Below, piece after piece: positions 32,142-51,163 of a stretch of 64,000 nt of DNA. Origin of the DNA: Brumimicrobium mesophilum (GTDB lineage: Bacteria; Bacteroidota; Bacteroidia; Flavobacteriales_D; Crocinitomicaceae); the NCBI RefSeq assembly GCF_003025005.1, contig NZ_PVSS01000018.1:1-64000 (forward strand), in the 5' to 3' direction. The notes under the pieces are model-generated. The model was not told the origin of the DNA and did not search any database. It saw only the letters and a list, made by a program, of their open reading frames with translations. The first letter of the stretch is position 1, and every line of letters begins with the position of its first letter. A program made the translations under genes and the position numbers.

Positions 32142-35100
32142 TTATAGCCCTCCTAAGTTAAATCTCAATCGAACTCCTGTTGCAATGTTTCCTGTTACGT
32201 AAGAAGTAGCAATCGTTGGGTCAGTCAATTGTTGATCATAATATAATGAAACGGTTAAATTCTTACCTACTAAATAATCAGCGCTTGAACGAATTGAGAA
32301 TACACGCTGTCCGGCGGTTGCCTGCGTAGTGTTTTCAACTACTTTTCGAATTACTGTTATGTTATCTCTAATGGACAAATCAAATCGTACGTTTAAATCA
32401 GAAGGTTTCAATCTATCTCCTCTAACAGTAATTGGAATTCTGAAATTTGTGAATTTATAACCTGTTCCGATTACAATTTCTGTTCCTATTAATTCAGTCA
32501 ATTGATTATTTGCTAAAGACAAGGAGGAAGCACGTTCTTTACTAATTTCAAATTTCGTTAACAATCCGTTACCATTCACTTTCCAAGTTGCATCAAAACC
32601 AATTAATGGAGAGAATCTCTCTGATATAGTTACGTTTTGTATTTGCTGCTCAGAAATAAAGTTGTTATTGATATCTCTAGCAGATAGGTAGCCATCATCG
32701 TCAACTTCAGCATTCAAATTCGTCTGCATTCCCGAAACATTAACTGTTGAGGTATATCCATGACGTAAAGTAAAGTTTTGTACATACTTTTTAAAGAACT
32801 TAAACTTAGTTAATCCATTGTATGAAACTTGCCAATTTGGAAGAGGTACACTTCTTACAGGAGATATAGAGTTTTTATTTGTGTTTTTTCCTGAGAAAGT
32901 ATTTAAGAAAGCTCCTATCAATACATCCTGCTGGTTAGGACCATAGCCATCAGTATATCCAGCACTATCAGACAAACTATAAGGATTTCCTTCACCCAGT
33001 AATTGTGAAACTTCTGCACGCCTTTCCCTTATATTGTCGAATGAGGGAGAACGATAATCATCATTCTTATCAAGTCTTTCAAAAGCTGATCGAATAGATA
33101 TAGTAGAATAACTTACCGTAGTAGTTTTAAATTCACTTTGATTTTCAAATGCTTGCAAACTATCTGAAAATCTAAAATAAGAAGACGTATTTTCAGTAAA
33201 ATTTCGTTGCATAGACAAATCAATCTTCAAATCCTTAATTGGTTCTATACTTGCACGCAAATTATAGTTTTGAGAATGCATTATAGTATGTTGTGTATTT
33301 AACCCACTCGTATCCACTATAAATCCATTTGCTCCTGCATAAGGTGCGTAATCAAAACCTGTTTCATTTCCGAAAACACTTCTTTGCTGTTGACCTATTG
33401 CAAAACCTCGTAATTTACTATCGCCCAACATTGCACTGTTTAATCCAAAGAAATCTGCTTCTTGATTAAATCCAGGCAATAACATTCCATCAGTTTGTGT
33501 GTATGTACCAGAAACAGTCCTTACACTCATTAATGCTCTAGCGGCAAATCCAACTACAGGATGATAAGGTTTACCAAACTTATCATTGTACTTCTCTTCA
33601 CGTTCATTTTGATTAGCAATTCGATCATCTTGACGCTCAAGTCTAGGCTCTTTATTTTCTAACTTTTTGGTGACTTTGGCCAATTCTTTTTCATGTTCAA
33701 CCAATTCATCAGTTTCTAAAGTATTCACCCTCACTCTTTCAAGCTTTTCCTTTTTAATGGTAAGTTCTCGAACTTTTTTCGCCAATCTACTGGTATTTAC
33801 AGGATTTGAACCAGGTCTATTTAATGTCCCCCTATTCATGGCGCCTTGTGGAGTTCGTAAAGATTCTCTACCTCCTCTACCATCTTCTACAATCTTTTTC
33901 AAGAAATCAGACTTCCTATATAAGGTCAACAAATTCAATTGTGCCGTGGTATTTATATTTCGACTATTTTGAATTGTATTTCCAAACACTTCTTGACCTA
34001 AATTTGGCCTTGTCCATTCGTAAGCCCCACCATATCTGATATTCGAATTAATGAAATCCAAAGCTGGAATTTTGTTGAAAGGAACATTGTATGTTAAATT
34101 ATAATTATGGTCATAACGCATAGTTTTTCCTAAAGTTCTCAATTGAGTTCTTACTGAATCTTGGAAATCTCTATACAGTTCTGGACTCTCATTCTTATCT
34201 ACTTGACCTTCTGCCTCATCAATTATTGATGTGTTATTTGAAGCAAAATCAAATTTCAGATTTCTAGTAATATCATATCCAAAATCAAACCTTCTGTTCC
34301 AAGTAAAGTTCTTCAAATAAATCGGTTGAAATTCAAAATCAGTATTCGGAATATTATTCGCGATTTGCCTTTCGTTATAATTACGAATTAAATTATTTTT
34401 TACACTAATATTTTTTGGTCCTAAATAGAAATTAGTAGATTGCAGCAAGCCCCACCATTTCGATTTACGCATGAATTTAGATTGCTTAAATGGCTCCCAT
34501 AAAGTTGGTGAACCATTGTAAACATAATTTACACCACCTTTCCAAATTTTTGTTCTATCGTAATTTGTAGTGAAATTTCTTGCATAATCTTCACTATAAG
34601 CAAAATTCAATGAGAAATTACTAATGTCCCAAATATTTGCCTCAGCACCCGGTTTTCTTTGTCTTCTTACATTAGTGAAATTAAATGATTTACGTTGTGT
34701 AAAATCACTTCCATCTTTCATTCTTTGTTTTCGTTCTTCAGAATCATAGGATGAAAGTTCGATGTCCGGATTATACGGATCATAACGCGGCCTCACTGTT
34801 CCTACAGAATATGTATACAAGAAGGGAATATCAATTTTAGCTTTATCGCCTAACAATTGACCTAGTTGTGCATTCGCTGAAACGTCCAAACTTAAACGTG
34901 TGTCTCTTTGTCTTTCTGCAACACGGCTATCTATACTCCCCCAATTTAGTCCGCTATATGCTCCTGCTACTTGAACGGTTGCAAAATCTGCTATTTGTAA
35001 TTGCGCTTGAGCAAGGGCGGCAGACCCCCCTTCATTTTGGAATTCTGTTAATCGCAATTCGTTAACCCAAACTTGAACACATTTTGCCAAACCATCATCT

Positions 35101-38100
35101 GGTTTCCATGGGTTATCTGCATTTTGCGCAGGGTTTCTAACTCCGATCATAATGGTTTTTACATCAACTAAATTAGGATTACCCTTAATTTTCACCATTC
35201 TCGGAGGATGATTAACATCATTGTTGTCAGACGTTCCAGGTTTATGTGCAATTTCCTTAGAATACTCGATATTTGTAGCAACATTAGACCCTGGCTGCTC
35301 CATCGCTGTATTTCTCTCTTTCTTTAAATTAATTAAGTCTTCAAAAACAATTCTTAGATTATTCTCTTCTGGCCAGATCTGTAAATCTTGAGTAACACCC
35401 CATTGACTTACCGTCATTGGAACTTCATACTCATAATAATTCTCCCTAAAGTCTGTTCCCAATCGAATAAAGACCGTGACATCTTCATCGTTTAGCGGAT
35501 TAGTGGGTTCTACTTCTTCAGCATGCAAGTACATTTCTAAATTCTTGTACATAATCATGTCCATACCAACATTCTTAGTTGCACCTCTAGCATCACCATC
35601 TTTTAAGTTACACACTTCAATGGTCATCGATTGCTCGTTCAACTGTCTTTGGAATTGCTGAGATGGATCAACTTCTCTATCGATTCCAGGTGGAATAACA
35701 TACTTAATTGGTTCACGCTGATCATGTTCTTCAACATTTACAGCTCCAATATTAAATGGTGTCAAATCTGGATCTTCTTGAACTCCATCCCCAGGTTGAG
35801 TTAAACTCTCTGTGAATTTTCTCCATTCTCCACGAACCAATTCTAATTTTGCAAAACGCAACGTAGTTTCTTGTTCAAAAGAACGCATAAACATTCTCAT
35901 AAAACGAATAGAACGGTAGTCCGAAATTCCATTAACTGCTTTTTCAGGATTTCTGATAGGTACACGGAACTGATACCATTTGAAATTCTTATTGTTTTTA
36001 TCGTATTCTCTTGTGTTAATAATGTAGTTTTTACCAACAACCAAATCACTTTGACGTAATGAGACCTTATATTGGAAATAACTTTCTGATTCACTTAGGT
36101 TGTTGTCGCGATTCACATCCTCCATGTCTGGAGTGTTGGTTGCTTGAGTAGGATATCCTTCGCTATTTATTTGAGCTGACATTTCTGGTGTTGGAGAATT
36201 TCCTTCATGCCCATTCCAATATTTGTACCTACGAATGATGTCTCTTTCATCTGCATCATATTGATCATCACGATAATAATTGTAGTTATCACCGGAAATA
36301 TCACGTAAAAGTTCAGCCCTTGCTTCAGGAGATAATACACTATTGGTTTGAATCCAATTAACGTAACTTGCGTATGCTAGTCGCTCTTTCTCATCATCAT
36401 ACCCGTCAAGTCCAACATCTTGTTGGGCTCTTGTTTCTGGGTCATTATCAAAAGCGTTTACTACAACTTGTTGAGTAGAAACTCTAGCCCAATTCGTAAC
36501 ATCAGTATTTAATGTGTTATCATATTCTCTTGGCAAACCGTTTTCAAAACTTTTTCTAGAATCAGGAAGTATATCTTCAGATAAGTTACCAATATTGAAG
36601 TATAAATCTCCTCCAGAATAAGGTGTTGTTGGATCTTGCGCCTGTTGGTCTTCATTAAATGGATCTAACAACCAAAATTGAATATATTCGACGTTGGTTT
36701 CTTCAAAATTAGTTGTTGTCAAAGAACGCATGATTCCATTCCATCTTTCTTGAGGATCTGTGAATTCTCCTTCAGCGTTAACGGTGTTTGTTGTATCGTA
36801 ATTATACATCCCTCTATCTTTAGGATAGTAAGTCATATTGAAAATAGGAAGATTCGTAATTTCACCAGTTGCAGGTTGTGTATTCGGGAAAATATCTGTT
36901 TTATTTACCAATGAAACATTCATATTTTCCGTAAAAGTTGGATCATCTGCAATATGTTGTGGAGTAATTGAACGGTTTTCATGGAACATAGGATCAATAG
37001 AATACCAAGACAAATGTGAACGCTTAAATCCAGCAGCCAAATTATTCTTTAAGGAAGCTTCCGGGAACAAGTCATCTTGTCCTTGAGGAATTGAAGCTAA
37101 CTTCCATGAAGAAAAGTTTTTTAAATCTATTGTTGATTGACTTCCTTCAAAATCGTCAACATAAGAAATCCCTTGTTTTGAAATTGCACGAGGAGTTCCA
37201 GGAATTAAATGTGCCGCCTCAGCATTTAAGGTTAAGGTAGACATTTGTTTGGTAGAAATTGTTGGAATAAAATTAATCAATTTAGTCAATAATGGAATAT
37301 CTGTTCTATAGGATAAATTAGCGCCAACAATGTTGTTTTTGAATGGTTCATCTCCAATATCCACTTTTTGTGTAATTGGTTTTTCTGTCATTCTCATCCA
37401 TGTTGCTCCCACATTAAAGTCAGGATTAATCATGTAATTCATATGAGTACCAATGAGCGATTTGTTTTGGAAACCAAAGACAGAATTACTTTCAATGGAA
37501 ATTTTTATGTCAGCATTTGATTCCAATACCGCACTATTCAAAATCTTTACACGACCTAAATTGTAATCTACAGTAAAATCTTGACCTTCTTGAAGCCTAA
37601 TTCCTCCTGCTGTAACTACCACTGCTCCTTCTGGAACGTTTAATGCGTTCAAAGGAATTTCATCACTAACTGAAGATTCATATTTCCCTACAAAATAAAA
37701 CCTGTTTTTCTTCGGTATTTGTTGTGCGGCTATTTTTGTTGAGTCATAAAGCTCATCGTATGCTACATTATCCGCAATTTGAGGAAGTCCCGCAGCAATC
37801 ATTTCTTTTCTTACCGTTTCAGCAAAGGGCTCGATTGTACTAAAATAAATACGACCATTTCTCGTATTGATAGTTCCTCCATTTGTAGCTTGATTTCCAT
37901 TAAAAGTAATAGGTAAAAAATCAAAAACTCCATCTTTTTGAGAACGATTGTTTTGATTTAATCGATCCATTCCTACTACATCAATTACTTGTTTATCATC
38001 CAAACCAGGGTAAGGAAGGAAATTCACTAATAAACTGTTGTCTGGGTTGTTGTAAAGAATGTCTAATCTAAATCCTTCTTGACTTACTTGATACGCCCCT

Positions 38101-43308: not shown

Positions 43309-44196
43309 TTATTGAATCATCAAACGGAGTGTTTTGCTTTTAGATCCATTTATTCCGTTTACATTCACAAAATAAACACCCTTTTTTAAATCGTTCACAG
43401 CAATATTGGTATTTGCTTTTACATAAATACGTTTCACTTCTTTACCCAAAGCATTTAAAAAAACTACCGTTCCTCCTTTCTTAAAATCATCACCGGTAAT
43501 CGTTATAAAGTCTTTCGTTGGATTTGGAAAAATACTCAAAGTAGATTTCTTTATAGTTTCTAAAACATCTAAATAAATAGGAACACAAGCATCAGTAGAA
43601 TCTAATTGAGTGTATATTAACTGACCTTCATTGAAATAACAGCTTAATTTTCCTGCGTCGTTTACACCTGGTGTTCCACCTGGAGCATTGATTAAACTAA
43701 GCGAACCTATTCCTTCAATCCAAATTGGATTTTCCGAACTTGATGATGTTGAACTAGGAGATAAATAAAAAAAACGATAATCAAAGCCATCTAATAATTG
43801 TTCTGTTCTAATTGAATCTAAAATAAAAAAGCCAGGGCTAGTAGGAAATGGACTCAAAGGGTTTTTAATCTCTATTGAATCTCCTACTTGCAATGAAAAA
43901 TCGTAAAGTATATCCTCCCTTCTAGACAAACCATCTTCTGTAGATAGAAAAATCTTTCTACTTTGGACATCTTCCCTCAACCAAAAGGTTCTTGAAATAT
44001 AATGGTAACCATTTAAAACCTTATAGTTCTTACCGTAATAAATAGTATCTCCATCAGTGTAATACACATCATCCACGCAACCTGTAAAACATGATGTCAA
44101 GTGCCATTCACTGTCATGATCAAGCATTTCATTATAAGATTGCGAAAGGCCAAAAGAAGCAAACAAAGTGAAAGTTAAAATAAAAGTAATCTTCAT
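43309..44196 (-). CDS. T9SS cargo protein with type A sorting domain (unknown function)
   Basis: A 295-residue secreted protein. A signal peptide (ILTFTLFASFGLSQ) is followed by about 200 residues without a recognised domain, beta-rich, with Cys pairs (TSCFTGCVDD near residues 34-41). The last 75 residues form a T9SS type A sorting tail: LSIFPNPTKDFITITGD, GKEVKRIYV, LKKGVYFVNVNG, ending KTLRLMIQ. It is exported through SprA and its tail is removed on attachment or release. The tail closely resembles that of the next gene upstream, but the bodies differ. Confidence 0.85.
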   Translation of the reverse strand: MKITFILTFTLFASFGLSQSYNEMLDHDSEWHLTSCFTGCVDDVYYTDGDTIYYGKNYKVLNGYHYISRTFWLREDVQSRKIFLSTEDGLSRREDILYDFSLQVGDSIEIKNPLSPFPTSPGFFILDSIRTEQLLDGFDYRFFYLSPSSTSSSSENPIWIEGIGSLSLINAPGGTPGVNDAGKLSCYFNEGQLIYTQLDSTDACVPIYLDVLETIKKSTLSIFPNPTKDFITITGDDFKKGGTVVFLNALGKEVKRIYVKANTNIAVNDLKKGVYFVNVNGINGSKSKTLRLMIQ

Positions 44197-44316: not shown

Positions 44317-45054
44317 CTATTGGATAATTAAACGTTGGACACTACTTTTAGTTCCAGCTGCTCCATAAATGTTTACGAAATAAACACCTCTTTTTAAATC
44401 ATTCACTGATAATTTTGTATTTTCAGAATTAACAAATGAACGTTTAATTTCTTTTCCTAGTGCATCTAAAAATACAATAGTACCTCCATTTTTCAATGCA
44501 TCACTTTTAATGGTAATAAAATCCTTTGCAGGGTTAGGGAAAATATTCATTGAAGTCTTTTCCTCATTCTTGTCAACACTTAGGTTACAGTTTGCGTTTG
44601 TTGTTCTGAAAATTATAGTAACAGAATCTAAAGCTTCACCAGACTCGGTAACAACATAATAATTGTGAACAGCGCAGGACTCCATCCCATTTGGAATTAA
44701 TTGAGGTTTGAAAGTCGAAGGTACATTTGTCTCTAAAGTATTTAGAATAGGAGATGTATAACTATATACATCATCAGCATCAAAGCAAAGTGAGTTATCA
44801 CAAACTTGATCAACTCTTCCGCTATTTACCTCTCTAATTCTTTGGTATTTTACGTCGACAGGTGCACCTTCGTTAATGACTTTTAAATCGAAATAAATAA
44901 CAGCATCATTTTTATCTCCCGTTATTTCAACGCTTGTTCCACTAATATCATTACTAAAATCATTTACTGAAACAATTTTAATGTCTTGTCCAAATAATTG
45001 GCTTGACAATAATATTAAGGATATTGCGAGTATAATTAATTTCATATTTTTCAC
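44317..45054 (-). CDS. T9SS cargo protein with type A sorting domain (unknown function)
   Basis: A 245-residue secreted protein with a signal peptide (LIILAISLILLSSQLFGQ). Residues about 25-160 form a single beta-rich domain with four Cys (VCDNSLCFDADD, MESCAVHNYYV, NANCNLSV). It resembles an Ig-like fold but matches nothing I recognise. The tail is a T9SS type A domain (MNIFPNPAKDFITIKSD, GKEIKRSFV, LKRGVYFVNIYG, ending QRLIIQ). It has its own terminator at 44261 and a 460-bp region upstream. Confidence 0.85.
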   Translation of the reverse strand: MKNMKLIILAISLILLSSQLFGQDIKIVSVNDFSNDISGTSVEITGDKNDAVIYFDLKVINEGAPVDVKYQRIREVNSGRVDQVCDNSLCFDADDVYSYTSPILNTLETNVPSTFKPQLIPNGMESCAVHNYYVVTESGEALDSVTIIFRTTNANCNLSVDKNEEKTSMNIFPNPAKDFITIKSDALKNGGTIVFLDALGKEIKRSFVNSENTKLSVNDLKRGVYFVNIYGAAGTKSSVQRLIIQ

Positions 45055-45514: not shown

Positions 45515-47554
45515 ATGAAACATCAAATACTAAGCACGGCTGTTGCTTTATTTACAGCAACAGGCCTTTTCGCCCAACTACCAGTTAGTCAGGCAGCTGA
45601 AAACAAAAACGCCGTTTTAGAAGAATTCACTGGAATCTATTGTACTTTTTGTCCAGACGGACATAAACGAGCTCAAGAGTTCAAGGATGCCAATCCTAGT
45701 GACGTTATCTTGGTGAACGTACATGCAGGAGGATATGCTGCTCCAAACGGATCAGATCCAGACTTTAGAACACCTTTCGGATCAGCTATAGCATCTCAAT
45801 CAGATTTAGCAGGTTATCCAGCGGGAACTATAAATAGAAGAAACTTCCCTGGAATGGAACAACAAGGATCTCCAAGTGGTGCTACCGCTATGAGTCGTGG
45901 TGACTGGTCAACAGCAGGAGGAACTGTTATATCCGAAGCTTCATATGCAAACATTGCACTAGAAGCATCAATAGAAGTTGCAACAAGAGAATTAACTGTT
46001 GACGTTGAAATGTACTATACAGGAACTGCTCCAGCAACAAACCAATTGAGTGTAGCAATATTACAAAGTGGAATTGAAGGACCTCAAACAGGAATGGCAG
46101 CAAATCCTAATCAGATTCTTGCCAATGGAAACTACGAACACAACCACATGTTACGTCACTTATTAACAGGACAATGGGGTGAATCAATCACAACAGCTAC
46201 TGGAACTGTAATTACACGTCAATACGTTTACACAATTCCAGCAGATTTAAATGGTATTGCTTATGAATTAGGTGACCTAGAGGTTGTTGCATTTATAGCA
46301 GAAGGTAATCAAAATATTGTTACTGGTGCAGAAGCTCCAATTACATACGTTCTTCCTCCTGGTGCTATTTTAGCAGACTTAAGTGCTACGTCATCAATGG
46401 CAGCACCAAATGGATACTGTGATGGTTCGGTAACACCTGAAATCACTGTAACAAACGAAGAAACTACTTCTATTGCAACTTATGAGGTTTCATACTCTGT
46501 AAACGGAGGTACAGCTGTTACACAAACGGTTACAAATGCATTAGCTGCAGGAGCATCTGCAACTACTTCTTTCCCAACGATTACTTTACCAGCAGGAGAA
46601 AACACAATTTCATACTCTACTAACGTTGTTAATGGTTCTTCATATGTAGAATTATCAACAGGAAATAACGTTGCTTCATCTGATGGGATTTATATAATTC
46701 CTTCAGGTACATTCGGTCAAACTAATAGTGAAGGATTTGAAAGTTCTGATGCATTCCCAAATGCTCCATCTGTTTCAAACGCGCTTATTGAAAACCCACA
46801 AGGACTTGCAATTCACGCAATTAGCCAAGCTAATGTAAATGGATTATCTCATGATTTAGGAGGATTTGGAAATAGTGCGAAAAGTTTATTTTGGAACTTC
46901 TTCAGTATCGCTAGTGGTGATGCAAGTTTAGTTTTCCATAAAATGGACTTTAGTGCAGGAACAGACCATGGTATTATGTTTAACCATGCTTATTCACAAT
47001 ACTCAACTGAAAATGACAAATTAGAAATTTTAGTTTCAACAGATTGTGGAGATACATGGACTACTGTTTTCTCTGAAGAAGGATCTTCTTTAGCAACTGC
47101 ACCAGCAACATCTACAGGAAACTTCTTCCCAGATGTTACAGAATGGAGCAGCAACTTTGTTGATTTAAGTGCTTATGATGGTGAAGCAGAAGTAATGGTT
47201 TCATTTAAAGGTACGTCTAACTTCGGAAACAACTTATTCGTAGATGACATTCAAATTCGTGACAACTTATTCTTAGGTGTTGAAAAACAAGAAGGTTTAA
47301 ATGTTGCCTTAAATGTTTACCCTAATCCTTCAACAGATTTAGTAAACGTTGACTTTAAATTGGAAAACTTAACGGATGTTACAGTTTCTATATTGAATAC
47401 TGTTGGTCAAACTGTTTCTTCAAATAATTTAGGTTCAGTTTCAGGAGTTCAATCAACACAATTAGATGTTTCTTCCCTTGAGTCAGGAATATACATTGTT
47501 AGAGTTCAAACTGCTAACGGAGAGCAAACAAAACGTATCTCAGTTATCAGATAA
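45515..47554 (+). CDS. Omp28-like thioredoxin-fold protein with T9SS sorting domain
   Basis: A 679-residue secreted protein. After the signal peptide (ALFTATGLFAQ) comes an Omp28-related domain, residues about 28-270, with a thioredoxin-like start (AVLEEFTGIYCTFCPDGHKRA; CxxC at Cys43 and Cys46). A CARDB or Ig-like module follows (about 285-400; TYEVSYSVNGG), then a jelly-roll-like domain (about 400-585; FWNFFSIASGDASLVF, KLEILVSTDCGDTW) as in many adhesins and peptidases. The tail is a T9SS type A domain (LNVYPNPSTDLVNVDF, LESGIYIVRVQT, ending RISVIR). It is the first of three CxxC envelope proteins in the next 6 kb. It is ended by its own terminator at 47588. Confidence 0.88.
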   Translation: MKHQILSTAVALFTATGLFAQLPVSQAAENKNAVLEEFTGIYCTFCPDGHKRAQEFKDANPSDVILVNVHAGGYAAPNGSDPDFRTPFGSAIASQSDLAGYPAGTINRRNFPGMEQQGSPSGATAMSRGDWSTAGGTVISEASYANIALEASIEVATRELTVDVEMYYTGTAPATNQLSVAILQSGIEGPQTGMAANPNQILANGNYEHNHMLRHLLTGQWGESITTATGTVITRQYVYTIPADLNGIAYELGDLEVVAFIAEGNQNIVTGAEAPITYVLPPGAILADLSATSSMAAPNGYCDGSVTPEITVTNEETTSIATYEVSYSVNGGTAVTQTVTNALAAGASATTSFPTITLPAGENTISYSTNVVNGSSYVELSTGNNVASSDGIYIIPSGTFGQTNSEGFESSDAFPNAPSVSNALIENPQGLAIHAISQANVNGLSHDLGGFGNSAKSLFWNFFSIASGDASLVFHKMDFSAGTDHGIMFNHAYSQYSTENDKLEILVSTDCGDTWTTVFSEEGSSLATAPATSTGNFFPDVTEWSSNFVDLSAYDGEAEVMVSFKGTSNFGNNLFVDDIQIRDNLFLGVEKQEGLNVALNVYPNPSTDLVNVDFKLENLTDVTVSILNTVGQTVSSNNLGSVSGVQSTQLDVSSLESGIYIVRVQTANGEQTKRISVIR

Positions 47555-47587
47555 TTTTGAATTAACTAAAATATTATCTGTAAGAAT

Positions 47588-47617
47588 CGGGAGGCTGAAA
47601 AGTCTCCCGTTTTTTTT
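47588..47617 (+). terminator. Terminator after the Omp28-like T9SS cargo gene
   Basis: Nine-bp stem CGGGAGGCT (47588-47596) with AGTCTCCCG (47601-47609), one G-T pair, GAAA loop, eight Ts following. The rest of the gap to 47948 is AT-rich; an imperfect palindrome AGTAT-GCTT-ATACT lies just upstream of the TlpA gene. Confidence 0.88.
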
Positions 47618-47948
47618 GAAATGTATTATACAACTTAAAGGTGATTTTGAAGGTTATTTGAATTATACCTCCAAAAGAAAAATCTAAGTTTTGCATTGCC
47701 ACAAATCAACATCCTAAAACCATTAACAATCAATCTAAAAACAACTTGAACTTAGTGATTGAATATTTCAACTCAAGCAAAATATTCTGCGTAAATAGGA
47801 AGTGCTAACATTTAACTTCCTGTTCTTTGGAATCCAATAGTTCTTCTATCATTTTTTACCATTTTTTCACTTTTATACCTATATTTGAATATTATGCAAT
47901 ATATGGTATGAAGTATGCTTATACTATGCTAAACTAAAACTAAAAAAC

Positions 47949-48476
47949 ATGAAAAAATTATCCCTTTTAATTGCTACTGCATTTATTTTCTTTACAGTCA
48001 ATTCTTTTGCACAAGATGGTGACAAAGGACTTTTGGAGAAATCAATTCCTGATATGCAATTAAAAAATACTGTTGGTGAAATGATTAGTACAGGTCAATT
48101 AGAAAACGATGGGAAACCAATGATTATTTCTTTTTGGGCAACTTGGTGTACGCCTTGTAAAAAAGAATTAAATGCAATTCACGATATGTATATAGATTGG
48201 CAAGATGAAACTGGTGTTCGTTTGATTGCCGTTTCAGTGGATGACCAACGTACCGCAAGCCGTGTTGTTCCTTATGTAGATTCAAAAGCATGGGAATATC
48301 AAATATTATTAGACCCAAATGGAGATTTTAAACGTGCGATGGGCGTAAATAACGTTCCCCATACCTTCCTAGTGGATGGAAATGGAAAGATTGTTTATTC
48401 ACATAACAATTATGCTCCTGGAGATGAATATGAACTATATGAGCACGTTTTAGAACTCTCAGAGAAAAAGGACTAA
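47949..48476 (+). CDS. TlpA-family thioredoxin-like protein, exported
   Basis: A 175-residue protein with a signal peptide (LLIATAFIFFTVNSFAQ). The thioredoxin-like domain has the active site WATWCTPCKKE (Cys67 and Cys70), the central beta-alpha-beta insert typical of TlpA/ResA (VRLIAVSVDDQRTASRV) and the cis-proline loop NVPHTFLVDG. Such proteins reduce disulfides outside the cytoplasm. It is the first gene of a tight unit with the DUF6029-like protein (30 bp downstream) and the Omp28-like lipoprotein. No membrane partner (DsbD/CcdA) that would feed it electrons is in the window. Confidence 0.92.
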   Translation: MKKLSLLIATAFIFFTVNSFAQDGDKGLLEKSIPDMQLKNTVGEMISTGQLENDGKPMIISFWATWCTPCKKELNAIHDMYIDWQDETGVRLIAVSVDDQRTASRVVPYVDSKAWEYQILLDPNGDFKRAMGVNNVPHTFLVDGNGKIVYSHNNYAPGDEYELYEHVLELSEKKD

Positions 48477-48506
48477 GTTTCAAATAATACAGTTTACATT
48501 CATCTT

Positions 48507-50162
48507 ATGAAAATTACACGATTACTTACGGGTACTGCTTTATTATTTTCTAGTTTTAATGTTTTGGCCCAAGGGACAATTACGGGAAACATGGAAAGTA
48601 ATTTTCAGTTCCTGCGCGATGATGATAAAATCAATGCTATACAACCAGATGAAAAGGCTTTGATTAACTCCTATATTAATGTTAATTATAGAAATTCTGG
48701 ATTTAAAGCTGGACTTCGTATTGAATCATATTTACCTAGAACTTTAGGCTATCCTGACCGCTTCGATGGAACTGGATTAGGATATGGGTATGTTGGTTAT
48801 GAAAACGAATTGGTAGATATTACAGTAGGAAATTTCTATGAGCAATTTGGATCTGGATTAATTTTCCGATCTTATGAAGACCGTGCATTAGGATTCGATA
48901 ACGCCATGAATGGTGTAAGTTTAAACTTACGTCCATACAAAGGAGTCACAATTAAAACTGTATATGGTCGTCAGCGTTTTTCCTTCACTGAAGGAAAGAA
49001 TGTATACAGCGCTGGAATTGTAAGAGGAGCTGATATTGAAATTAATTTTAACCAATGGTTTCCTAAGCTTGCAGCAAGCGATTTTAGAATTAACGGGGGA
49101 GGTTCATTTGTTTCTCGCTATCAAGAAGACAATAATTCGCAATTCATACTTCCTGAAAACACTGGAGCTTATGGAGGAAGATTAGAATTGGCTTATAAAA
49201 AATTCTTTATTAATGGAGAGTACATCATTAAAGAACAAGACCCTTCTCAAGACAACGGCTATATTTATAATTACGGAAAAGGAGCCATCATAAATGCAGG
49301 TTATTCTCAAAAAGGTTTGGGAATTATTCTTTCTGCAAAATCAATTGACAATATGAGTTTCAGGAGCGACAGAGATGCTGCGCTTCAAGATGTTACTATA
49401 GGATTCATTCCTCCATTAACAAAGACTCATACATATAATTTAGCTGCCACTCTATATCCTTATGCTTCTCAACCAAATGGTGAAGTTGCATTTCAGGCGG
49501 ATATAATTTATAAGATAAAAAGAGGTACTTTGTTAGGAGGGAAATATGGAACAGACATCGCTCTGAATTTTTCTACGGCCTATGAACCTAGAAAAAGAGC
49601 AATTGCGCCTAATGAAATGGACTCTTCACGCGTAACCTACAAATCAGATTTATTTGATAAAGGCGACTTACTATATTGGAGAGACGTTAACGTAAATATA
49701 AAACGAAAATTAAATAAGAAATGGACTGTTGAAGCAAGTTATTTCAATATTTCAATGAACAACGATGTTTTAAAACTTACTGATGAAAAGGGAATAATCG
49801 AGTCTCATATTGGGGTTTTAGATGTTCAATATAAAATCAATAGAAAACATACGATTAGAGGTGAAATTCAAGGTTTATGGACAGTTGACAATAAAGACAG
49901 AGGTTCATGGGCAACCGCATTAATTGAATATACCGTTTCTCCTGATTGGTTCTTTAGTGCAGTATTACAATCTAATTATGGTAATCCAGTTGAAGAAGAC
50001 CGTATAAATTATCCAATGGTATTCGTAGGACGTATTTGGGGCGCAACTCGTTTACAAGTTGGATATGGACGTCAAAATGAAGGATTGTTTTGTGTAGGAG
50101 GAATATGTAGATTCGTTCCAGCATCAAACGGTTTATCCGTTTCATTCACTCACAGCTTCTAA
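48507..50162 (+). CDS. Probable outer-membrane beta-barrel protein, DUF6029-like
   Basis: A 551-residue protein with a signal peptide (LLTGTALLFSSFNVLAQ). The remainder alternates polar and hydrophobic residues in beta-strand fashion and ends in an aromatic (SFTHSF), as outer-membrane barrels do. Conserved-looking stretches are ITVGNFYEQFGSGLIFRSYE, LGFDNAMNGVSLNLRPYKG and FVGRIWGATRLQVGYGRQNEG. From memory this matches the DUF6029 family of Bacteroidota. Only two Cys, close together near the C-terminus (LFCVGGICRF). It sits between TlpA and the Omp28-like lipoprotein, 30 and 11 bp away, so the three probably work together. Confidence 0.78.
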   Translation: MKITRLLTGTALLFSSFNVLAQGTITGNMESNFQFLRDDDKINAIQPDEKALINSYINVNYRNSGFKAGLRIESYLPRTLGYPDRFDGTGLGYGYVGYENELVDITVGNFYEQFGSGLIFRSYEDRALGFDNAMNGVSLNLRPYKGVTIKTVYGRQRFSFTEGKNVYSAGIVRGADIEINFNQWFPKLAASDFRINGGGSFVSRYQEDNNSQFILPENTGAYGGRLELAYKKFFINGEYIIKEQDPSQDNGYIYNYGKGAIINAGYSQKGLGIILSAKSIDNMSFRSDRDAALQDVTIGFIPPLTKTHTYNLAATLYPYASQPNGEVAFQADIIYKIKRGTLLGGKYGTDIALNFSTAYEPRKRAIAPNEMDSSRVTYKSDLFDKGDLLYWRDVNVNIKRKLNKKWTVEASYFNISMNNDVLKLTDEKGIIESHIGVLDVQYKINRKHTIRGEIQGLWTVDNKDRGSWATALIEYTVSPDWFFSAVLQSNYGNPVEEDRINYPMVFVGRIWGATRLQVGYGRQNEGLFCVGGICRFVPASNGLSVSFTHSF

Positions 50163-50173
50163 AATATATAGCA

Positions 50174-51103
50174 ATGAAAAAATTACAAAAATATTTCTTA
50201 TTTCTATTTGGAGCCTCTGTTGTTTTAACAAGTTGCGACAAGGTAGATAATCCTTATGAAAAAGTTGTTGAGATTAACCTTGACACCACATTATACGATG
50301 GTGCTTGGAGTGATTATCTGGCAAATGAATATCCGACCTTTCCTAGTAATACTAATACAAACGTAAATGTTTTAATAGAAGATTATACAGGACATACTTG
50401 TATTAGTTGTCCAACTGCAGCTGACATTGCTCACGACATTCATATCAACAATCCAGACCGCGTTTTTGTAGCGTCAATCCATACAGGTCCAGGATCACTT
50501 TCATTTCAAGCAGCAAATCCAAATAATCCTAAATTCTTCACAGACCACACAAATCCTGATGGAATTGCATATGGTGATGAATTCAAGAATGGTTTTGGTT
50601 TTTTTGGTAACCCTCAAGGAACGGTAAATAGAAAAGAAGGTAATGGACAGATGTTTTCATTATTTGGTGTTTGGCAAAGTAGAACGGATGACATTTTAAA
50701 TGCAAATGAATTAAAATTTGATATCCAATCAGTATTCAATTATTATACTGCCGCTAATGGTGGATATTTACATGTTGAAGTAGAAAAGAAAACCACTGAA
50801 GCTATACAATTGAATACCGTTGTATATGTGATCGAAGATTCCTTAGTTGATTGGCAAAAAATGCCTGACAATACAGACAACGAATTCTACGTGCACAGAG
50901 ACAAACACTTGGGGAGTATAGATAATAATGCTTTTGGTATTTCCACATTTATGTCAGACGCATCTTCTGGAGATAAAAAGATATTAGATTATTCTTATGT
51001 TTTACCTCAAGGCTTAGATAAAGAAAATATGCATTTCTTAATTTATGTTTACGATGTCGATACGTATGAAATTCTACAAGTAATTAAACAAAAAATTGAA
51101 TAA
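50174..51103 (+). CDS. Omp28-like lipoprotein with CxxC motif
   Basis: A 309-residue lipoprotein; the lipobox VLTSC places the lipidated Cys at residue 21. The domain starts with VLIEDYTGHTCISCPTAA (CxxC at Cys76 and Cys79), closely parallel to EEFTGIYCTFCPDG in the T9SS-sorted protein at 45515. Together with the FFGNPQGTVNRKEG stretch this supports the Omp28-related family with a thioredoxin-like core. No sorting tail is present. It is the last gene of the TlpA unit, followed by a terminator at 51135. It is likely anchored in the outer membrane; function unproven. Confidence 0.85.
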   Translation: MKKLQKYFLFLFGASVVLTSCDKVDNPYEKVVEINLDTTLYDGAWSDYLANEYPTFPSNTNTNVNVLIEDYTGHTCISCPTAADIAHDIHINNPDRVFVASIHTGPGSLSFQAANPNNPKFFTDHTNPDGIAYGDEFKNGFGFFGNPQGTVNRKEGNGQMFSLFGVWQSRTDDILNANELKFDIQSVFNYYTAANGGYLHVEVEKKTTEAIQLNTVVYVIEDSLVDWQKMPDNTDNEFYVHRDKHLGSIDNNAFGISTFMSDASSGDKKILDYSYVLPQGLDKENMHFLIYVYDVDTYEILQVIKQKIE

Positions 51104-51134
51104 CAATTTAAATTACGGAGATTTGATTATTAAG

Positions 51135-51163
51135 AGAGTTACAAGAAATTGTGGCTCTTTTTT
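51135..51163 (+). terminator. Terminator of the TlpA-DUF6029-Omp28 unit
   Basis: Eight-bp stem AGAGTTAC (51135-51142) with GTGGCTCT (51151-51158), two G-T pairs, followed by five Ts. The remaining AT-rich gap to 51431 holds no gene. Confidence 0.7.

Follow-up and report, generated by a model that had tools for sequence, protein, structure and literature searches.

Introduction

The MtrCAB porin-cytochrome conduit is laid out as a periplasmic redox protein, a wide barrel, and a surface redox lipoprotein, and the helical inner-membrane thiol transporters DsbD and ScsB transfer redox equivalents across a membrane by means of cysteine pairs. Here we analyze a locus of Brumimicrobium mesophilum (Bacteroidota), contained in a 64,000-nucleotide stretch (contig NZ_PVSS01000018.1, positions 1 to 64,000, forward strand; hereafter “the window”), in which a TlpA-type thioredoxin, an outer-membrane barrel of family DUF6029, and an Omp28-family lipoprotein are encoded side by side. 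The layout of these three proteins parallels that of MtrCAB, and thiol redox transfer across a membrane by cysteine pairs would be the same job as that of DsbD and ScsB. Unlike MtrCAB, the module has thioredoxin folds in place of cytochromes: the multiheme cytochrome motif CxxCH is absent from the five window proteins, and the Mtr complex chain (MtrB, PDB 6r2q) found among the Foldseek matches of the barrel is a generic barrel match only (template modeling (TM) score 0.37). Unlike DsbD and ScsB, it uses a beta-barrel, in the outer membrane.

Papers cited below by PMC number enter as excerpted passages, to which statements about them apply. The nearest solved relative of the Omp28 lipoprotein model is HBP35 of Porphyromonas gingivalis (PDB 5y1a), a surface protein of the type IX secretion system (T9SS) with a thioredoxin motif, whose insulin-reducing thioredoxin activity in vitro is lost when both cysteines are mutated (PMC2907840). 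HBP35, however, is described with heme binding, and no outer-membrane barrel, TlpA, or electron source is described for it in those passages. For Omp28 itself (PF11551; P. gingivalis PG2173, PDB 2r2c), called an Omp28 lipoprotein in PMC9722745, the literature passages assign no function; PG2172, a T9SS substrate found with PorV (PMC5562754), would be encoded next to it, judging from the gene numbers. Two window proteins match PF11551 over the Pfam cut-off, but in the lipoprotein both the Pfam match (residues 135–308) and the 2r2c match (199–308) are C-terminal, and the CxxC-bearing thioredoxin part lies N-terminal of both. Surface thioredoxin-family lipoproteins with a redox partner are likewise described in Streptococcus pneumoniae (Etrx1/Etrx2, PMC3914529), in a Gram-positive host, however, with no outer membrane to cross. 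The passages of a 2026 preprint on surface thioredoxins of Muribaculaceae (PMC13404670) do not name Omp28 and mention no such barrel. Among the matches listed from the open-access literature, which leaves most subscription journals outside, no paper ties DUF6029 or Omp28 to TlpA or to outer-membrane thiol transfer. The module thus appears undescribed, with its parts falling in known families and the system in none.

We propose that, in this conserved Bacteroidota module, thiol-disulfide redox equivalents cross the outer membrane to pass between periplasm and cell surface, a proposal that we regard as evenly poised between right and wrong. It builds on gene linkage across the phylum, on redox motifs, and on predicted positions, from which we infer the electron transfer itself. 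Judged from the genes, the core of the module appears to be TlpA, a barrel with a cysteine pair, and a surface thioredoxin-fold protein. TlpA is predicted to be exported to the periplasm and the 24-strand barrel to lie in the outer membrane with its cysteine pair extracellular, and Omp28 is probably on the surface because it is a lipoprotein or T9SS cargo. These predicted positions agree with an earlier, sequence-only reading of the locus, in which thiol proteins inside and outside the outer membrane were grouped about a barrel; the function that it suggested, transfer of reducing power or disulfide repair across this membrane, stays a hypothesis.

Results

A conserved gene trio in Bacteroidota

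All three genes lie on the forward strand. The TlpA/ResA-type periplasmic thioredoxin (47949..48476, 175 amino acids, with a signal peptide and the active site WCTPC, C67/C70) is followed after 30 nucleotides by the DUF6029 barrel (48507..50162, 551 amino acids, 24 long strands predicted), and this after 11 nucleotides by the Omp28 outer-membrane lipoprotein (50174..51103, 309 amino acids, lipobox cysteine C21, GHxCxxC motif with C76/C79, a thioredoxin fold followed by a beta-sandwich). Pfam assigns these products to AhpC-TSA (E = 1.5e-22, 80.3 bits against a cut-off of 26), DUF6029 (PF19494; 5.7e-180, 600 bits against 27, spanning model positions 14–538 of 538), and Omp28 (PF11551; 3e-13, 50.4 bits against a gathering score of 34.9), respectively.

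We evaluated gene order around DUF6029 in 110 loci, which reduce to 101 distinct ones with the window's own included, and in 88 further loci that were not checked for overlap with the first set. TlpA 5′ and Omp28 directly 3′ of the barrel occurred together in 92 of the 101 distinct loci. This synteny, together with the fact that the two Omp28-family matches in the window's own genome (a 99.8% complete draft) both lie at this locus, rules out incidental clustering. The same picture emerged when open reading frames (ORFs) of at least 90 codons from 188 distinct loci were clustered with no prior list of families: besides the barrel (188 loci), only TlpA (170), Omp28 (166), and the main cluster of a T9SS-sorted family with a C85/C90 cysteine pair (48, hence at least 48 for that family) exceeded 30 loci. 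The next clusters include malic enzyme, sirtuin, RuvA, and SprA-like frames, named by eye (the window sirtuin also by Pfam), and look like ordinary chromosomal neighbors of one branch. A separate cluster of small exported proteins near the barrel, perhaps small outer-membrane proteins, was seen in 30 of the 188 loci (L071:10557-11183 and 29 others).

Across 395 sampled genomes of the phylum, DUF6029 was found in 98, about a quarter (96 over the cut-off), and Omp28 in 83 (75 over the cut-off). Both families were present in 76 genomes, DUF6029 only in 22, Omp28 only in 7, and neither in 290, for an odds ratio of 143 that, like our other co-occurrence statistics for DUF6029, Omp28, and C85/C90, is not corrected for phylogeny. 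Nineteen of the 22 genomes with DUF6029 only belong to one divergent family, f35. For 11 of these 19 the locus was taken, and a redoxin-type gene lies 3′ of the barrel in ten (L186, L188–L196), the eleventh being the sub-cut-off locus L198. The co-occurrence of Omp28, TlpA, and DUF6029, which the sequence-only reading had named as the survey to make, was thus found both as local linkage in 92 of 101 loci and across the phylum.

An invariant cysteine pair in the DUF6029 barrel

Near its C terminus the barrel carries the sequence CVGGIC with its two cysteines, C529 and C534, a pair absent from the sequence-only reading. They fall in loop 12 (residues 524–539; 50076..50123, forward strand), a hairpin that is extracellular by topology. 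In an alignment of 149 sequences with 14–86% identity to the window protein (the window plus 148 of the 157 listed), the invariant columns were G108, G117, G136, G526, C529, G532, C534, and G542; eight of the nine sequences left out also carry the pair, and the ninth is the contig-cut L066. Counted by locus, the pair was present in 100 of the 101 distinct close loci, the exception being L066, cut by a contig end, and in 86 of the 88 further loci, the exceptions being L145, where the frame ends early, and L198, where the match is below the Pfam cut-off. Distant barrels differ mostly in mid-motif (e.g., CxSGIC or CxNGVC), and the nearest named relatives by barrel are Brumimicrobium species, with up to 86% identity. 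Four loci (L062, L063, L064, and L068) have a tandem second DUF6029 gene after the Omp28 lipoprotein gene; loss of the cysteine pair in these second copies was considered and rejected, as the pair is kept there. Separately, DUF6029 is split across frames or fragments in a genome of the same genus (G008:C11:26584-28025) and in a second copy elsewhere (G048:C3:213886-215559), possibly by decay or sequencing error.

The AlphaFold2 model of the barrel has a mean predicted local distance difference test (pLDDT) score of 95.1 and a predicted TM (pTM) score of 0.89, with 24 long strands by our count. The soluble fold that would have counted against the sequence-only reading was thus not what the model gave; it predicts an outer-membrane barrel. 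The turns after even strands are short (2–12 residues) and were taken as periplasmic, and on this rule the cysteine hairpin (526–530/533–537) is predicted to sit in the last extracellular loop, L12. This loop is also the most conserved segment of the protein, at 3.23 bits vs. an overall mean of 1.60, followed among loops and turns by L3 (2.49), the periplasmic turn 478–480 (2.41), and L7 (1.90), with the other nine extracellular loops at 0.70–1.45 and four strands reaching 2.0–2.2 bits. Among the most conserved residues, many are charged or polar strand residues, mostly in the extracellular half by position, which suggests that they point into the lumen. The turn SPD at 478–480 (residues 478–481 correspond to window 49938–49949) stands far above the other periplasmic turns in conservation, with P479 and W481 among the top residues, and is a possible docking site for TlpA.

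Comparisons to known structures place the barrel near no particular relative. Foldseek returned generic large barrels (FimD, OprC, AlgE, the Mtr complex, and others) with query TM-scores of 0.25–0.41 among the 50 matches listed, and no close match. The candidates for solved relatives by sequence, four matches with E of 0.3–0.97, were all antibody chains and were taken as chance. Pfam at E of 1 or better gave DUF6029 and one chance match at 0.17, with no match to the usher family (FimD), so that the likeness to ushers is generic and one of fold only. From the standard barrel formula we estimate a backbone diameter of ~43 angstroms for 24 strands, at which a small thioredoxin might enter the lumen if L3 and L7 leave room.

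These features bear on whether the barrel is instead a channel for a specific substrate, be it a polysaccharide, a metal, or a small thiol or cystine, with the cysteine hairpin as a ligand or redox gate whose state TlpA and Omp28 would set. The one open-access paper found to mention DUF6029 (PMC9603273) examines 28 Wzi-like barrels that lack a plug and lie near polysaccharide-export genes; it reports strong HHpred likeness to DUF6029 for many of them and suggests a possible role in polysaccharide secretion. The conserved L3, L7, and charged strand residues would suit a selective pore, and polysaccharide and metal barrels (AlgE, OprC) are among the many generic structural matches. These matches, however, reach only the low TM-scores given above, and the gene neighborhoods do not follow suit: the four families found in more than 30 of the 188 loci are the barrel, TlpA, Omp28, and C85/C90, and no cluster at 10–30 loci was recognized as polysaccharide export, although not all clusters were identified. 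We consider a substrate channel improbable.

TlpA accompanies the barrel

The window TlpA, in which the N-terminal signal peptide was read by eye, was placed among TlpA/ResA-like proteins; with 87.1 bits it does not reach the 170-bit cut-off of the narrower NCBIfam ResA family (NF002854). Of the 101 distinct loci, 94 have a same-strand TlpA gene 5′ of DUF6029, 91 of them with a gap of at most 160 nucleotides, and in 74 of the 88 further loci TlpA lies within 1.5 kb of the barrel (69 on the same strand). CxxC is present in 93 of the 94 locus TlpAs, the remaining one (L108) being cut. All 168 locus TlpAs, the window's included, match the operon TlpA better than they match the TlpA-like proteins encoded at five other places in the window's own genome.

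Fourteen loci had no adjacent TlpA call. Ten genomes were searched (L158, L175, L180, and L198 lie outside this search), and a TlpA orthologue was found in all ten, at 133–231 bits, which rules out the missing neighbor as an argument against coupling. In one of them (G348, 133 bits) the orthologue overlaps the start of the barrel frame and is hence adjacent; another (G216) has a second TlpA match, at 128 bits.

We also looked for lipid anchors on TlpA. By a strict lipobox pattern, 91 of the 94 have none (three positive), and a looser rule that excludes the active site flags a signal-peptide cysteine in 18 of 94; the eight of these that were displayed have the cysteine inside or near the signal peptide. 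A rule accepting a cysteine up to residue 75 flagged 70 of 94, which on reading we ascribe to active-site cysteines.

Interchangeable thiol proteins, probably at the surface, 3′ of the barrel

Omp28 lies 3′ of the barrel in 98 of the 101 distinct loci, with CxxC in 98 of 98, so that the conservation of CxxC motifs in orthologues, on which the sequence-only reading depended, was found here as for TlpA. In 94 downstream Omp28 proteins the invariant columns were C21, C76, C79, H103, P147, and G255. This alignment comprises the window and 93 of the 138 listed proteins with most T9SS-tailed members left out, so that the C21 column is invariant partly by choice; the lipobox around C21 of the window protein was read by eye. 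The lipoprotein model (pLDDT 94.3) shows, on our reading of the fold, a thioredoxin-type N-terminal part with C76/C79 at a helix start and P147 before a strand, and a beta-rich C-terminal part. Its top PDB match is HBP35 (5y1a, E = 6.7e-11, TM 0.61), followed by 2axo and then by the P. gingivalis Omp28 domain 2r2c.

In NCBIfam terms, neither the lipoprotein (101.7 bits) nor the T9SS form of the window (100.4 bits) reaches the 150-bit cut-off of the Omp28 family outer membrane lipoprotein model (NF033782), and both remain far from the 200-bit cut-off of the Omp28-related selenoprotein model (NF045500; 25 and 22.9 bits), with cysteine at the places in question. The existence of this selenoprotein family nonetheless suggests, by name and a weak sub-cut-off match only, a catalytic cysteine in Omp28. 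A TGA codon in the Omp28 frame of one genome (G089) was considered as selenocysteine and rejected, as it lies at the frame end.

The slot directly 3′ of the barrel was sorted by family and anchor over the 188 distinct loci. Where it holds Omp28, 128 are lipoproteins and 16 have a T9SS tail; for redoxins these two forms number 7 and 2; three loci have another protein there, and 32 have none. When the lipobox is called by a second rule, with the active site excluded, the six classes number, in the same order, 125, 16, 7, 2, 6, and 32. These counts depend on the lipobox rule: a strict one gave 74 of 98 Omp28 proteins and missed real ones, and a looser one gave the slot counts used. The T9SS tail model was built within this analysis, and two of the 16 T9SS-tailed Omp28 proteins also show a lipobox-like cysteine, their frame starts probably having been called too far upstream. 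In L192, Pfam and NCBIfam confirm a periplasmic redoxin, a second redoxin (lipobox read by eye), and a T9SS-tailed redoxin, and in L188 the tail is confirmed. CxxC is present in all 156 proteins that occupy the slot. Across lineages, one surface anchor replaces another, and in distant ones a redoxin of a different family replaces Omp28, with a CxxC thioredoxin-fold protein staying throughout; these swaps among anchors and families independently support the surface location of the slot protein. They also lend independent support to the link with the T9SS drawn by the sequence-only reading, since the operon Omp28 itself carries the sorting tail in 16 of 188 loci, or a T9SS-tailed redoxin stands beside the barrel in other lineages.

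The residues straight after the lipobox cysteine of Omp28 (window 50234–50254) are conserved, mostly as CD[KE][VI][DE]xP. To our knowledge this start is unlike the export signals of Bacteroidota lipoproteins, and it is perhaps a tether binding the barrel. One lipoprotein-type Omp28 (L162:3238-4272) has, before its CIPC motif, an extra N-terminal domain that looks PEGA-like.

The slot invites another view of the barrel, in which it would serve as a translocon or docking platform by which Omp28 and the T9SS-sorted equivalents reach the surface, with the cysteine pair as a transient checkpoint with cargo. Where a slot protein is present it is mostly of a surface type, its lipoprotein form has the conserved start just described, and the barrel resembles wide ushers in strand number. 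T9SS-tailed slot proteins, however, have an export route of their own, yet the barrel cysteine pair is kept in those loci, and a translocon leaves the periplasmic TlpA without a role. We regard this explanation as very unlikely.

T9SS-tailed neighbors and the C85/C90 family

Upstream of the three genes lies a T9SS-sorted Omp28-type surface protein (45515..47554, forward strand, 679 amino acids), which we class as an accessory thiol protein. It matches Omp28 (PF11551; 1.2e-18, 68 bits against a gathering score of 34.9) and Por_Secre_tail (2.5e-16), has cysteines C43/C46 and also C302 and C511, and carries a type A sorting tail. The ORF and cysteine lists confirm the sequence-only reading in its placement of this and the three operon genes, all on the forward strand, and in the CxxC motif given for each thiol protein; the spacing of the last three and the terminator-like hairpins described below also fit their grouping as one tight operon. 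The T9SS-sorted Omp28 was rejected as a core member: of 101 loci, no more than 35 have an Omp28-like match 5′ of the barrel, tail-only matches included, and loci with a 1.5 kb flank cannot show the whole gene. Other T9SS-tailed thiol proteins often take that position. In the related loci L031–L033 and L035–L037 the upstream T9SS-tailed protein scores best with the TlpA profile (20–30 bits), whereas that of L034 is Omp28-type. A T9SS-tailed protein with a match to the Omp28 or TlpA profile lies near the barrel in 65 of 198 loci; this set is redundant, many of its loci have no more than a 1.5 kb flank, and in four of the proteins the frame seen has no CxxC.

The T9SS type A sorting domain (TIGR04183/PF18962) is over the cut-off in this protein and in two further neighbors, both on the reverse strand. 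The first (44317..45054, 245 amino acids) is a small protein of an unnamed family with the invariant pair C85-x4-C90, and the second (43309..44196) has several cysteines. The sequence-only reading had taken both as cysteine-containing T9SS cargo whose maturation the thiol proteins might serve. The sorting tails hold for both, and the invariant pair favors the first; the second had no blastp match at E = 1e-5 among the ORFs of loci L001–L198 in a single, non-iterated pass, leaves the idea of a conserved client unsupported, and looks lineage-specific.

Members of the C85/C90 family score at least 50 bits in 95 of the 198 loci and lie mostly 5′ of the barrel on the opposite strand (85 of 118 matches before the 50-bit cut). 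Both cysteine columns are full in two alignments (97 of 97 and 69 of 69 rows), with varying spacing, and no Pfam or NCBIfam family was matched by more than three of 69 members. The window's own genome has one match. At E = 1e-3, 164 of the 395 genomes have some match, many of them weak and covering only the signal peptide region. At a line of 3e-9, drawn after seeing the list and with at most nine candidates scored per genome, the family is present in 66 genomes, 58 with DUF6029 and 8 without (odds ratio 52). The best match lies within 8 kb of the barrel in 37 of these 58. Among the other 21, nine have a located TlpA away from the barrel, and in all nine the C85/C90 match lies 61–186 nucleotides from the TlpA match; eight of the nine belong to family f44. 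In these nine genomes, the T9SS gene with the cysteine pair stays with TlpA rather than with the barrel. The C85/C90 protein is thus a conserved partner or possible client of the module.

This arrangement favors the strongest rival explanation, namely a dedicated disulfide maturation system with no electron flow via the barrel. As the nascent barrel and T9SS cargo cross the periplasm, TlpA would keep or repair their cysteine pairs, and the surface Omp28 or T9SS redoxins would form or isomerize disulfides after insertion or export. Both candidate clients, the barrel and the C85/C90 protein, carry invariant cysteine pairs, TlpA stays next to the gene of the cysteine-pair cargo in genomes that have the barrel gene elsewhere, and an earlier study, as related in PMC2907840, had hbp35 complementing an Escherichia coli dsbA mutant. 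Maturation does not readily explain, however, the high conservation of barrel loops L12, L3, and L7 and of the charged strand residues. Moreover, it is rare for ordinary structural disulfides to require dedicated oxidoreductases both inside and outside a membrane. Overall, we hold maturation alone to be unlikely.

Two terminator-like hairpins fit a division of the region into two transcription units, the T9SS-sorted Omp28 alone and the three-gene operon: one 3′ of the T9SS-Omp28 gene (47588..47609, forward strand; 9 pairs, 6 of them G-C, then eight T) and a weaker one 3′ of the Omp28 lipoprotein gene (51132..51161, forward strand; 3 G-C of 13 pairs). Five such hairpins were found in the region vs. 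3.5 expected by chance, i.e., a count near chance. Elsewhere in the window, a frame at 34749–36365 (reverse strand) matches SprA_N (E = 3e-148), placing a T9SS translocon gene ~8 kb from the cysteine-pair T9SS protein and 9 kb from the T9SS-sorted Omp28. SprA-like frames, named by eye, are near the barrel in 22 of the 188 loci.

In the phylum sample, SprA was present in 303 of the 395 genomes, including 97 of the 98 with DUF6029 (compared by eye). The association is confounded, since 14 of the 20 SprA-less genomes listed (72 more are unlisted) belong to one family.

Discussion

A proposed route for thiol redox equivalents

If the module transfers redox equivalents across the outer membrane, electrons would pass from an inner-membrane DsbD-type protein, of which the genome has one match, elsewhere than this locus, to TlpA. 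TlpA would then enter or dock at the wide barrel and exchange with the C529/C534 hairpin, which would hand on to the CxxC of Omp28 and of T9SS-sorted thioredoxin-fold proteins that have no NADPH-fed (reduced nicotinamide adenine dinucleotide phosphate) reductase outside. Surface clients would in turn be the targets of these proteins, with the C85/C90 protein as the first candidate. Flow is probably outward, bringing reducing power to the surface, a direction favored by the TlpA/ResA type of the periplasmic protein, the DsbD-type protein in the genome, and the insulin-reducing activity of HBP35. That L12, L3, and L7 are so constant favors an active barrel, short of proof.

Several observations weigh against such a route. 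Contact between TlpA and the C529/C534 hairpin is an assumption, and in the predicted topology the hairpin is on the far membrane face from TlpA. The conserved loops L3 and L7 may fill the barrel lumen, and C529/C534 may be a permanent structural disulfide across the hairpin turn. Likeness to DUF6029 is also reported among Wzi-like barrels near polysaccharide-export genes (PMC9603273). The partners are not always together: among the 98 genomes with DUF6029, Omp28 is unmatched in 22 and the C85/C90 family, at the 3e-9 line, in 40, while 7 and 8 genomes, respectively, have these families without DUF6029, the TlpA and barrel genes are unlinked in nine genomes, and 32 of 188 loci have no thiol protein directly 3′ of the barrel, some of them with Omp28 upstream. 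One genome (G286) has TlpA, barrel, and Omp28 (L137) without SprA, and the T9SS is therefore not required for the module. Finally, the co-occurrence statistics carry their uncorrected phylogeny.

Taken in its most specific form, the proposal is that this is the first thiol-based electron conduit across an outer membrane, in which a 24-strand barrel with an invariant, CxGGxC-type extracellular hairpin links periplasmic TlpA to surface thioredoxin-fold proteins and to a T9SS client with a cysteine pair. This is a tentative claim, which we consider somewhat doubtful.

Implications

Bacteroidota display thioredoxin-fold proteins on their surface, where no NADPH exists. The module is a concrete candidate for recharging them, with a conserved barrel that has a single invariant cysteine pair and is predicted to stand between two thioredoxins, one periplasmic and one at the surface; if true, a conduit of this kind would answer how Bacteroidota surface thioredoxins stay reduced. 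DUF6029 thereby acquires a first candidate function, and the unnamed family of T9SS-sorted proteins with a cysteine pair is defined as a possible client of the module.

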